Both the position numbers and the translations under genes were made by a program. This document shows positions 52,298 through 55,906 of a DNA stretch of 64,000 bases, in pieces; within the stretch, counting starts at the first letter, position 1; each line of letters opens with the position of its first letter. Source of the stretch: Chitinophaga lutea. Lineage in GTDB: Bacteria > Bacteroidota > Bacteroidia > Chitinophagales > Chitinophagaceae. Location of the stretch: assembly GCF_003813775.1 (NCBI RefSeq), contig NZ_RPDH01000001.1, positions 558,001 through 622,000 on the forward strand, written 5' to 3'. A model generated the notes under the pieces. That model was not told the origin of the DNA. It made no database searches and was given only the letters and a program-made list of their open reading frames with translations.

Positions 52298-53167
52298 CTA
52301 TTGTATTTTGGTCACCACCAGGTCGTCGTAGTAAATATATCCGTCGGTGGTGGATTGCCAGTGCGCCTGGCTGCCGCCGCGGAAAGTATGGAAGCTGAGG
52401 TTGCGGATGAGGCGCTTGCTGTCGTTGGTGGTCCAGCGGATGGCCGTGTCCAGCACGGTAACGCCGTCGATCACCAGTTTGGCCCGCCCGTTGGTGCTGG
52501 TGCCGGTATTGCTTTTTACATACATCTGTACCTGGTAGGTCTGGCCCCTGTTGAGGCTGCCGGTGGCCGGGTACGATTTACCGAAGTTGTCGCCGAACTC
52601 GCCGGGCTGGTCGCGGTAATACACGTAGGGATGGAAGTACACCCTGCTGCCGTTATTATACCACATCAGGCGCATACTGCCGCCGTTGCCGTCCCAGCCG
52701 GGGTCGCCGCCGGTATTGCCATCGCCGATCAGGAAACCGAAACCCAGCTTGCCGCCGCGGCTCCAGTCGAACGCGCTGTGGAACCGGATGCTGAACGATA
52801 CCTGGTATTCGCTGCCGTCGGAAATGTCCGTGCGGGCAATGATGCCGCTGGCTCCGCCCAACGCGTCTTTAAGAAGCGTCACGCGCAGGTTGCCGTTGGA
52901 GATCATCGAGCGGGAACTGTTCCAGCCGGTGATGTTGCCGAAATCGGCTTCGGCCTGCGCCTGCGTATAGGCGGTTCCGTGCGTGTAACTGTCCCAGTTC
53001 TCGGAAAAAGAGCCGTTGATGGCGGCGATGGAAATATCCGTCACCGATAGCGTGTTTTCATTTGCAGGAAGCAGTTCATTGTCTGTTACTGCGGGTTTGC
53101 TGCAGGCTGCAGCGGATAGTACAAGCAGGATCATGCCTGCTCTGACAGATTTCAGATGATCTTTCAT
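52298..53167 (-). CDS. Polysaccharide lyase family 14-like lipoprotein
   Basis: A 289-aa lipoprotein: lipobox SAAAC (Cys22). The mature part (about 55-289) resembles the beta-jelly-roll of PL14 alginate/glucuronan lyases: SFSIRFHSAFDWSRGGKLGFGFLIGD, SMRLMWYNNGSRVYFHPYVYYRD, KSNTGTSTNGRAKLVIDGV and a closing strand DGYIYYDDLVVTK. Catalytic residues cannot be confirmed by eye. The protein may instead only bind carbohydrate. It is a single gene outside any SusCD locus, with its own terminator. Confidence 0.65.
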   Translation of the reverse strand: MKDHLKSVRAGMILLVLSAAACSKPAVTDNELLPANENTLSVTDISIAAINGSFSENWDSYTHGTAYTQAQAEADFGNITGWNSSRSMISNGNLRVTLLKDALGGASGIIARTDISDGSEYQVSFSIRFHSAFDWSRGGKLGFGFLIGDGNTGGDPGWDGNGGSMRLMWYNNGSRVYFHPYVYYRDQPGEFGDNFGKSYPATGSLNRGQTYQVQMYVKSNTGTSTNGRAKLVIDGVTVLDTAIRWTTNDSKRLIRNLSFHTFRGGSQAHWQSTTDGYIYYDDLVVTKIQ

Positions 53168-53320
53168 GGTGTGCTGTTTTCATGAACGTGAAAAATTCGG
53201 GTTTACCTGGTTATCCAAACAATATTAACTGCGTTATTAATTTAACGAAAAAAACCGGTTCGGGGAAATTGCCCGGCCGGCCGACTTTCCGCCGGTATAT
53301 AAAAACTCCCCCGATCTCGT

Positions 53321-53328
53321 TATATTTG
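53321..53328 (+). promoter_or_regulatory. Promoter -7 element upstream of the fluoride riboswitch
   Basis: TATATTTG, a perfect TAnnTTTG match. Transcription should start a few bases downstream, just before the aptamer begins at 53341. The 150 bp further upstream show nothing I can support. Confidence 0.65.
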
Positions 53329-53340
53329 TTCCGTAAAAAA

Positions 53341-53398
53341 GGAAATGGTGTCTTCCTACCTGAACCGTCTTCCTCCCGGAAAGACTGATGGCGCCTAC
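53341..53398 (+). ncRNA. Fluoride riboswitch (crcB motif) aptamer
   Basis: The RNA matches the crcB fluoride aptamer. P1 is GGAA (53341-53344) / TTCC (53353-53356). P2 is GGTGTC (53347-53352) / GGCGCC (53390-53395), with two G-U pairs. P3 is GTCTTCC (53367-53373) / GGAAAGAC (53378-53385), with one bulge. The highly conserved 3' block CTGATGGCGCCTAC (53385-53398) is complete, as is GAACCG (53362-53367). It lies between a promoter and a CLC-F-type fluoride transporter gene, as known for this class. Confidence 0.93.
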
Positions 53399-53441
53399 AA
53401 AACCAGGGGCTTTGCAAAAGGCCTTCATTTCAATTTGTAGG
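53394..53441 (+). promoter_or_regulatory. Predicted translational expression platform of the fluoride riboswitch
   Basis: CCTACAAA (53394-53401), the tail of the aptamer, is exactly complementary to TTTGTAGG (53434-53441), which ends one base before the ATG at 53443. Without fluoride this helix would bury the ribosome-entry region. The fluoride-bound aptamer uses CC of P2 and the CTAC tail and should free the start. There is no strong U-run, so translational rather than transcriptional control is inferred. Confidence 0.65.
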
Positions 53442-53442
53442 T

Positions 53443-54705
53443 ATGAAAAAACCAGAACAGGTACACATAGCCGCTCACTTGTTAAAATGGACCGCCATCA
53501 CCGTTCCGGTAGCGCTTACCGTGGGCTCTCTCGTCGCATTCTTTTTATGGTCGCTCGATGAAGTGACGCAGCTGCGGCAGCAGCGTCCCTGGCTCCTGTA
53601 TTTACTGCCCGTAGCGGGGTTGCTGATCTATGCGCTGTACAGGTATCTCGGCAAAAACGCCGAAGCCGGCAACAATCTCATCATGAACGAGATCCATGAG
53701 CCCGGCGGCGGCGTTCCCTTGCGAATGGCGCCACTGGTGCTGGCCACCACCATCATCACCCACCTCTTCGGCGGCTCCGCCGGCCGGGAAGGTACGGCTG
53801 TGCAGATCGGCGGCAGCCTGGCCGGCCAGCTCGGCAAATGGTTCCGGCTGGGGAAAGAAGATGTGCGTATCATCCTCACCACCGGTATCGCCGCAGGTTT
53901 CGGGGCCGTGTTCGGTACGCCCGTCACCGGCGCCGTGTTTGCGCTGGAAGTGCTCACCGTGGGCCGCATCAGCCACAAAGCGCTCCTGCCCTGCCTGATG
54001 GCCAGCGTGCTGGCAGACGTGACCTGCTCCGCCTGGCAGATACAGCACACCCATTATCACATCGCCATCAACGAAGTGATCAGCAGCACGGTCGACTTTA
54101 TCCATTTTGACTTCTGGCTCCTGCTGAAAGTGATCGGGGGCGGCGTTTGTTTCGGGATGGCCGGTTATCTTTTCTCCACCCTGTCGCACACCATTAAAAA
54201 ATACAGCGGGCAGTTCATCCCCGTCAAATGGCTCATCCCTTTCGTTGGCGGCATCGTCATCATCGCGCTGACTGCGTTGCTGGGCACGGATGATTACCTG
54301 GGGCTGGGCGTCACCAATCCCGATCCCGACGGCGTATCGATCGTATCTTCTTTCCGCGAAGGCGGCGCCGGTTACTGGAGCTGGTGCTGGAAATTATTGT
54401 TCACCGCCATCACATTGGGCATGGGTTTTAAAGGCGGCGAAGTAACGCCCCTGTTTTTCATCGGCGCGGCATTGGGCAACACCATCGCATTGCTCACAGG
54501 CGCGCCCGTAGACCTCATGGCCGGCCTCGGCTTCATCGCGGTGTTCGCGGGCGCTACCAATACGCCCATCGCCTGCACTATCATGGGCGTGGAATTATTC
54601 GGCGGGGAATATGTACTGTATTATGCCGTGGCGTGTTTTACGGCGTATTATTTCAGCGGCCACACGGGCATCTATGCCGCGCAGCGCATGCAATCCAAAA
54701 CCTGA
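53443..54705 (+). CDS. CLC-F type fluoride/proton antiporter
   Basis: A 420-aa CLC-family membrane protein. Two features mark the fluoride-exporting CLC-F branch. The anion-coordinating GSGIP loop is replaced by GNNLI (76-80, in [20 protein letters not shown]), and the gating-glutamate motif is GREGT (114-118, gate Glu116) instead of GREGP. Also present are [20 protein letters not shown] and [17 protein letters not shown]. There are no CBS domains. It exports cytoplasmic fluoride by proton exchange. The upstream fluoride riboswitch strongly supports the assignment. Convergent with the DUF1343 gene, with a 4-bp gap. Confidence 0.93.
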
Positions 54706-54709
54706 CGGC

Positions 54710-55906
54710 TTATTTGTAGAGCAGGTATTTCGTCCTCATTTTTTTGTACGCGCTTAAGCCCGGTTCCCAGCTTTTGCGGATCTCCGCTTCACTTTTACCC
54801 GCAATGATCTGTTCCCTGAACTGTTTAACGCCGGCCAGTTTGTTGATGTCGCCGATCTGGGTGCTGTAGGAACGGTCAAAGAATTTTGCTTTGTCCGGGT
54901 ACGCTTTGTACAGGTCGATCATCCAGCCGACATTGATTTTCCCGGCCTTGCGGAACGGGGAAATATCGAACCGGCGCAGGTCCAGGCCGTAGCAGGCATC
55001 GTTCTGGTGCAGCGGCGTTTCGGATTTGCCGGGGATACTCACGGGCGTGAACGTGAAATCGTAGATCCCTTTCAGGCGGGGCGCGCCCAGTACGGTGAAG
55101 GGCATGTATGTGCCGCGGCCCTGGCTGAGGATGGTGCCTTCGAACAGGCAGAGGGAAGGATACAATATCACCGATTGCTGTGTATTCAGGTTCGGCGACG
55201 GGGCCACGGGCATCTCATAATCCATATCGTGGCGGTAGTTGGCCACCGGTATCACTTTGATCTTGCATTTCATTTTATTCTGCAGCCAGCCTTCGCCGTT
55301 CAGCATGTGGGCAAATTCCCCGATGGTCATGCCATGCGTGATGGGAATGGGGAACTGGCCGATGCCGGATTTATTTTCCATATCCAGGATGGGCCCGTCT
55401 ACATACCCGTTGGGGTTGGGCCGGTCGAGAATGAGCAGCTCTTTACCGAACTGCGCGCAGGATTCCATCACGTCGCGCAGGGTGTTGATGTTCGTATAAA
55501 AACGGCAGCCCACATCGGCGATGTCAAAAATCATGATATCGAGATTGTCGAGGTCTTTTTTGGCCGGTTTCCTTTTGTTTCCGTAGAGGGAAATAATGGG
55601 AATGCCGGTAGCCTTATCCACTTCGTCGTGCACCTCGGCGCCGTTGCTGGCGTTGCCGCGGAAGCCGTGCTCCGGCCCGAAAATCGCCTTGATGTTCACC
55701 CCCAGCGAACGCAGGCTGTCTACGCTCAGCTTATTGCCGATAATGGACGTCTGGTTCACCACCATGCCCACCCTTTTACCTTTGAGGTACGGCAGGTAGG
55801 CCTTCACCTGGTCGGCGCCGGTGATGATGCCTTTACTGGAATATTGCGCCGCGCCTACAAAAGGTGTGGCCAGCAGGAGGATGATAACGATCAATCGTAT
55901 TTGCAT
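54710..55906 (-). CDS. DUF1343/NamZ-family exo-beta-N-acetylmuramidase-like protein
   Basis: A 398-aa exported protein, signal peptide MQIRLIVIILLLATPFVGAA. The DUF1343 core is complete: LKGKRVGMVVNQTSIIG, IKAIFGPEHGFRG, IPIISLYGNKRKP, IMIFDIADVGCRFYTNINTL, ILDRPNPNG and EGTILSQGRGT. The founding member, NamZ, removes non-reducing-end N-acetylmuramic acid from peptidoglycan fragments. Peptidoglycan recycling or turnover in the periplasm is the likely role. No MurNAc transporter is encoded adjacently. Confidence 0.92.
   Translation of the reverse strand: MQIRLIVIILLLATPFVGAAQYSSKGIITGADQVKAYLPYLKGKRVGMVVNQTSIIGNKLSVDSLRSLGVNIKAIFGPEHGFRGNASNGAEVHDEVDKATGIPIISLYGNKRKPAKKDLDNLDIMIFDIADVGCRFYTNINTLRDVMESCAQFGKELLILDRPNPNGYVDGPILDMENKSGIGQFPIPITHGMTIGEFAHMLNGEGWLQNKMKCKIKVIPVANYRHDMDYEMPVAPSPNLNTQQSVILYPSLCLFEGTILSQGRGTYMPFTVLGAPRLKGIYDFTFTPVSIPGKSETPLHQNDACYGLDLRRFDISPFRKAGKINVGWMIDLYKAYPDKAKFFDRSYSTQIGDINKLAGVKQFREQIIAGKSEAEIRKSWEPGLSAYKKMRTKYLLYK

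Follow-up and report, generated by a model that had tools for sequence, protein, structure and literature searches.

The locus described here raises the question of how a riboswitch may control translation where no Shine-Dalgarno (SD) site stands ahead of the gene, and it thereby touches the open question of how the SD-less ribosomes of Bacteroidota pick their start codons. Bacteroidetes are reported to be without SD sequences, initiation being tuned by structure and by the bases ahead of the start codon (PMC6847099, 2019). The DNA under study, hereafter the window, is a stretch of 64,000 nucleotides (64 kb) from Chitinophaga lutea, and the features of the locus are listed in Table 1.

Table 1. 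Features of the fluoride riboswitch locus (positions are those of the window)
Feature	Positions	Strand	Basis
Promoter -7 element, Bacteroidota type, TATATTTG (TAnnTTTG)	53321-53328	+	Sequence and family loci
Fluoride riboswitch aptamer, crcB motif, RF01734	53332-53404	+	cmscan 47.8 bits, E 3.7e-10, model 1-64 of 64
Pseudoknot strand 1, GGTGTC (putative)	53347-53352	+	Sequence read against the Rfam alignment
Pseudoknot strand 2, GGCGCC (putative)	53390-53395	+	Sequence; final two C also in the masking helix
Aptamer tail CCTACAAA, 5' strand of the predicted masking helix	53394-53401	+	Exact complement of 53434-53441; pair probabilities; covariation
Inner hairpin within the masking-helix loop, coinciding with a weak terminator-like match	53406-53425	+	Fold and terminator-like pattern search
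Masking element TTTGTAGG, 1 nt 5' of the ATG	53434-53441	+	Exact complement; relatives; aptamer-less relatives without GTAGG
Predicted CLC-F type fluoride/proton antiporter gene, 420 aa	53443-54705	+	PF00654 E 8.2e-71; 6d0j E 2.1e-62

The first-pass annotation of this DNA had described a complete crcB-type aptamer, and the covariance-model search that it called for returned a strong, full-length match to RF01734, whose 47.8 bits exceed the gathering score of 34. This is the sole Rfam match at gathering score within the window, and no second RF01734 copy was found at E 0.001 across the 6.6-Mb genome. The two putative pseudoknot strands are complementary by eye with two G-U pairs, and their pairing is proposed from that complementarity. 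The promoter element claimed ahead of the aptamer is likewise present and conforms to TAnnTTTG, which we take to be the Bacteroidota-type -7 promoter motif; this motif ends 4-18 nt 5' of aptamer stem P1 in 125 of 193 family loci, as against 0 of 193 at identical offsets 100 nt further upstream.

The product of the downstream open reading frame (ORF) belongs to Voltage_CLC (PF00654, 239 bits). Of the PDB entries listed, the CLC-type fluoride/proton antiporter 6d0j matches it best in sequence (E 2.1e-62), and the sole other CLC kind is Sll0855 (3nd0; E 4.5e-7). Furthermore, GNNLI of the 420-residue protein aligns with GMNLV of 6d0j, GSGIP being replaced by a loop of the GxNLI/V type, and the earlier assignment of the gene to CLC-F is borne out by these matches. 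The RF01734 aptamer is therefore found upstream of a predicted fluoride exporter gene of the CLC-F type, whose nearest named relative among the best 80 of 169 is that of Chitinophaga alhagiae (85% identical). The neighbouring genes on the minus strand, at 54710-55906 and 52298-53167, encode a NamZ-type exo-beta-N-acetylmuramidase and a polysaccharide lyase 14 family protein, respectively, and have no evident connection to fluoride.

The aptamer tail and the element ahead of the ATG are exact reverse complements over eight nucleotides, as had been claimed, and the eight pairs have probabilities of 1.0, 1.0, 1.0, 1.0, 1.0, 0.99, 0.95 and 0.77 in an unconstrained fold. The final two C of the second pseudoknot strand, together with the next U, are common to the pseudoknot and the masking helix. 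A reading of the leader sequence revealed no SD core, nor was a U-run found after the helix. In the C. lutea locus the helix stops 1 nt 5' of the ATG and thus covers the pre-start bases, not the ATG. The original proposal of a masked start consequently stands for the bases ahead of the ATG but not for the ATG itself, which lies outside the helix here and is not predicted to be freed in CLC loci.

The occurrence of this arrangement was followed in overlapping samples of genus, family, class and phylum genomes, where RF01734 was detected above the cut-off in 73 of 79 (own genome included), 123 of 394, 40 of 395 and 35 of 296 genomes, respectively. A total of 251 loci (numbered with the prefix L) were oriented, 238 of which possess a CCT[AG] tail and an ATG-initiated ORF of at least 80 aa; simple motif rules divided these into 188 CLC, 22 CrcB-like and 28 other loci, some CrcB-like genes remaining among the last. 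The thirteen loci lacking such a tail or ORF were dropped (L142, L168, L182, L183, L190, L194, L198, L200, L225, L229, L243, L249 and L258), and the locus set likewise leaves out one above-cut-off place of the family sample (G326:C2:8835), seven of the phylum sample and all sub-cut-off matches. Since choosing the element by its pairing was to be avoided, it was defined as the nearest AGG at most 14 nt 5' of an in-frame ATG, plus the six bases ahead of that AGG. The first ATG having such an AGG was used, so a later in-frame ATG was accepted where the first had none, and the rule is biased toward finding AGG. By this rule 172 of the 188 CLC loci carry the element, at a distance of 0-3 nt between AGG and ATG in 147 of the 172. 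The other 16 were excluded from the pair counts, and eight of these have a near-complete element by eye (L009, L014, L092, L100, L116, L151, L227 and L237).

At least seven of nine tail-element pairs can form in 161 of the 172 CLC loci, i.e., in 152 of 158 from the family of the window and nine of 14 from other families. In register, 1448 of 1548 cells (nine positions, 172 loci) are paired (93.5%), compared to 32.1-44.4% when the strands are shifted by 1-3 nt; for positions 4-9, which were unused in the element search, the values are 90.3% against 30.9-46.0%, and for loci with variant tails 79.6% against 22.1-41.5%. Position 4 provides the cleanest test because the tail there varies between A and G: its pairs are A-T in 113 loci, G-C in 31, G-T in 26, A-C in one and G-A in one (Fisher 2.9e-17, phylogeny ignored). 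Replacements of the whole element also stay paired, for example CCTGATTAT/ATAATCAGG, CCTGATTAG/TTGATCAGG and CCTGCGAAT/GTTTGCAGG.

Duplex energies calculated for each tail with its own and with swapped elements are in agreement with these counts. For variant tails the means were -10.31 (own) and -7.30 (swapped), with own being lower in 55 of 58 distinct cases; for CLC loci of other families, -7.55 and -4.67 (own lower in 15 of 19); and for CrcB-like loci, -8.34 and -5.75 (16 of 21). The comparison for the common tail (-11.36 against -9.17) is weak alone because most loci share one element, and variant tails and slid registers were therefore used. Loci with other downstream genes (n=28, including family f46 and two CrcB-like loci) displayed no significant pairing (13 of 27). 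While all locus-level pairing counts, duplex comparisons and Fisher values ignore phylogeny, the predicted start-masking helix is beyond chance across related CLC loci.

Phylogeny was taken into account by comparing independent pairs on a FastTree phylogeny of 171 CLC proteins, on which position 4 changes 12 times in the element and 24 times in the tail. Among six well-supported independent pairs differing in the element at this position, the tail differs in the same way in a mean of 5.0 and never in the opposite way (median p 0.0625), while the fourteen pairs differing in the tail divide into 4.7 with a matching change of the element, 0 with an opposite change and 9.3 with no change, the last being compatible with pairing because G-U wobble permits it. 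Tail position 5 changes once, so that the CCTGATT block counts as one event, and the tail follows in one of the four pairs that differ in the element there. Position 8 leans toward pairing (3.4 same and 0.7 opposite of 12; 2.7 and 0.6 of 10). At position 7, the 11 pairs differing in the tail lend no support (1.5 same against 1.3 opposite), and among the results listed for the seven pairs differing in the element, mostly 2-3 are the same and 0-1 opposite. The covariation of tail and anti-tail that had been proposed for comparison in related genomes is thus present in homologous loci, and the phylogeny-aware test points in the right direction with few independent events behind it. What sequence comparison shows is an aptamer, a predicted exporter gene and, pairing the aptamer tail with the pre-ATG bases, a helix that is conserved and covaries.

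The consequences of pseudoknot formation were sketched by folds that carry no pseudoknot energies. When the pseudoknot bases of the 158 family CLC loci were locked unpaired, predicted tail-element pairing fell from 0.89 to 0.29 and the mean unpairedness of positions -9 to +3 rose from 0.28 to 0.41 (up in 141 of 158, by more than 0.2 in 43), as against a control lock under which the mean stayed at 0.28 (any rise in 91, more than 0.2 in 0). In the 14 CLC loci of other families the rise was small, from 0.41 to 0.47, occurring in 11 loci as against seven under the control lock. The AUG of the family CLC loci was not freed by the lock, its mean unpairedness being 0.63 free and 0.52 locked, which indicates that the predicted freed part is the stretch ahead of the AUG.

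We consider it very likely that the leader is a fluoride-responsive ON switch which acts on translation through masking of the start region, with no SD site involved. The covariance-model match and the tail/anti-tail covariation support this interpretation, which the first-pass annotation had also favoured, while the response of the leader to fluoride is our inference. In the absence of fluoride, the tail CCUACAAA would exit the pseudoknot and pair with UUUGUAGG, and the 30S subunit would as a result be unable to settle on the start region. In its presence, the pseudoknot GGUGUC/GGCGCC would keep the two C and the equivalent of U48 of the transcriptional fluoride riboswitch, which we take to be position 53396 here; the helix would lose its base and the start region would be open. 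The masked element would comprise approximately 9 nt adjoining the ATG in CLC loci, or the ATG plus codons 2-3 in CrcB loci. For the transcriptional fluoride riboswitch it has been reported that the linchpin pair A40-U48 must open before the expression platform can break up the pseudoknot, an event that is prevented by long-range pairs which fluoride stabilises (PMC11077080). The masking helix would exploit the same A40-U48 gate, but the strand that competes would come from the start region and not from a terminator. The likeness to that Bacillus cereus riboswitch would therefore lie in the competition between platform and pseudoknot and in its gating, whereas the competitor is a terminator hairpin in B. 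cereus and a helix at the start codon without a U-run here.

The high conservation of the element and its nearness to the ATG could also be explained if it were a ribosome-binding signal in its own right, its AGG pairing with the anti-SD sequence and the match to the tail being secondary. We regard this as very unlikely: the element varies together with the tail, and its usual distance of 0-3 nt from the ATG is too close for SD spacing, which ordinarily exceeds this. A general start motif was rejected, since TTTGTAGG followed by ATG within 6 nt has 32 genome matches against 28 for the reversed pattern, i.e., no clear enrichment, and AGG occurs at -14 to -1 in just four of the 45 greedy ORFs of the window. 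An SD core precedes only three of the same 45, in line with the rare use of SD sites assumed at the outset. Conservation of the gene start independently of the riboswitch was rejected on the basis of the 80 named CLC relatives fetched by gene (the best 80 of 169). The aptamer was recognized by motif in 72 of these; of the eight misses, one (L306) has an Rfam match and seven have none, and GTAGG is absent from the 110 nt 5' of the homology in all seven, a small sample with provisional starts. Pair counts among 68 rows of these relatives are a lower bound owing to a wrong ATG in some rows, with six of the 68 having fewer than seven pairs. Given the lack of GTAGG where the aptamer is lacking, the lack of genome enrichment and the scarcity of AGG before window ORFs, the masking element seems to be a part of the riboswitch and not of the gene or of a general translation signal.

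Predicted terminators often overlap the crcB motif (PMC2864571), and the masking helix or the inner hairpin might accordingly act as an intrinsic terminator, making the switch transcriptional. A search of 53200-53600 returned a single weak terminator-like match, coinciding with the inner hairpin, and 17 of 172 CLC leaders contain a T run of 5-6 between tail and ATG. However, shuffles yield 0.8 such matches on average, and the longest T run is at most four from tail to ATG in 155 of the 172 loci and from the element end to +12 in all 172. An intrinsic terminator was rejected because the masking helix, which ends close to the ATG, has no subsequent U-run and the hairpin shares no base with the aptamer, and a transcriptional switch is in our view highly improbable. 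For other translational riboswitches, coupling to mRNA decay or to Rho is known. The helix could thus be real but act mainly by exposing the untranslated message to decay or to Rho-dependent termination, a coupling that also appears in one 2026 title (PMC12810186); as a rival this is very unlikely, and such an effect would be a consequence of start masking and not an alternative to it.

Start-region masking also appears, in modified form, ahead of CrcB genes. In family CrcB loci the CCTG-type tail can pair across the ATG and codons 2-3, for example CCTGTACAT with ATGTACAGG, and the riboswitch would thereby constrain the N-terminus of the protein (ATG-NNN-AGG). A ATGNNNAGG start was found in 11 of 13 family CrcB genes with aptamer and CCTG tail, as against three of the 27 CrcB genes among the best 30 loci for which Rfam reported no aptamer (Fisher 1e-5, phylogeny ignored). 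This value is generous because three of 16 genes, those with CCTA tails (L053, L114 and L130), were excluded, any in-frame ATG at most 60 nt from the tail was allowed, the 27 aptamer-less genes were assessed by eye at no more than two ATGs each, and four of the 11 positive genes (L031, L032, L036 and L242) belong to one genus.

Outside the class the picture is different: GGAG is present at -20 to -4 in one of 193 family loci and one of 34 other class loci, but in six of 11 loci outside the class, where it is complementary to the aptamer's own CTCC. With GGAG in that one family locus only, the masked element of the family does not qualify as a sequestered SD core. The distribution of GGAG suggests that the aptamer often masks the SD site in loci that have one, and in SD-less loci the start itself. 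The outside loci that mask an SD site (L245, L250, L252, L253, L254 and L257) share with the present locus a purine-rich pre-ATG element complementary to the aptamer 3' strand, yet differ in that GGAG forms part of this element, whose pairing reaches further into the pseudoknot strand ACTCCT. It is likely that the fluoride riboswitch has been rebuilt in SD-poor Bacteroidia, its tail masking pre-ATG bases (CLC-F) or the ATG and codons 2-3 (CrcB), while outside the class it often masks a true SD site.

The fluoride riboswitch class was reportedly identified in a 2012 paper. Its members in Pseudomonas syringae and Burkholderia pseudomallei mask the SD site. These two, which have been named as translational controls (PMC13273304), are also of the RF01734 class and are expected to follow the same ON logic, whereas the present locus lacks an SD core and its masked bases adjoin the ATG. 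The same source models whole fluoride riboswitches, keeps terminator-bearing ones and does not contain the string 'Bacteroid-' in its main text. Synthetic theophylline riboswitches that mask both the SD site and the AUG (PMC8241225) are alike in that the ligand is reported to free the masked AUG region, but they are engineered and contain an SD site; masking of ribosome-binding sites in general has been treated elsewhere (PMC2258182, PMC10907184). Among the titles and abstract openings listed, a scope that does not extend to the class-defining 2012 paper, none describes a fluoride riboswitch that masks start-adjacent bases in bacteria lacking SD sites. The present locus is best read as a variation on a known aptamer class, in which the start region is masked without an SD site. 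A riboswitch tuned to hide start-adjacent bases would supply natural ON/OFF pairs with covarying variants for testing which of these bases count and, if the reading is true, a natural and genetically simple probe of start finding by SD-less ribosomes; it may also yield an inducible design for a phylum to which SD-based tools fail to transfer.

Several loci depart from the common arrangement. In L162, L164 and L165 (family f41), the helix seems by eye to be shifted, pairing CGATTTTA with TAAAATTG in L162, instead of being CC-anchored. In the CLC locus L166 (family f16), the tail CTTCAAC pairs with the coding start ATGTTGAAG, suggesting that a CLC gene, too, may be masked over its first codons. 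The CrcB-like loci of family f46 (L170, L180, L184, L185, L189, L193 and L196) have their tail 16-22 nt ahead of the ATG and possess no anti-tail. Two CLC relatives without riboswitch (L302 and L323) carry TACATTTG a few nucleotides ahead of the ATG and look leaderless.

Other genes were also found behind the aptamer. In L173, L187 and L188, the tail and element (CCTACAATA/TATTGTAGG) extend into the probable GTG start of a membrane protein, which we presume to be PAP2-like. L175 has, 167 nt downstream of the aptamer, a protein that looks like an enolase, and no start-adjacent anti-tail. A transporter-like protein (e.g., MKLKKATIFVVLLGCTSLFSDMTYEAARS...) follows the aptamer in L126, L132, L148 and L208, the genomes of which contain a second aptamer and a CLC gene approximately 2.7 kb away; among these four, L208 only has a start-adjacent anti-tail. 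Finally, the aptamer and masking element of L053, L114, L130 and L008 stand ahead of an ATG with a short or missing CLC frame, a CrcB-like gene following in the first three.
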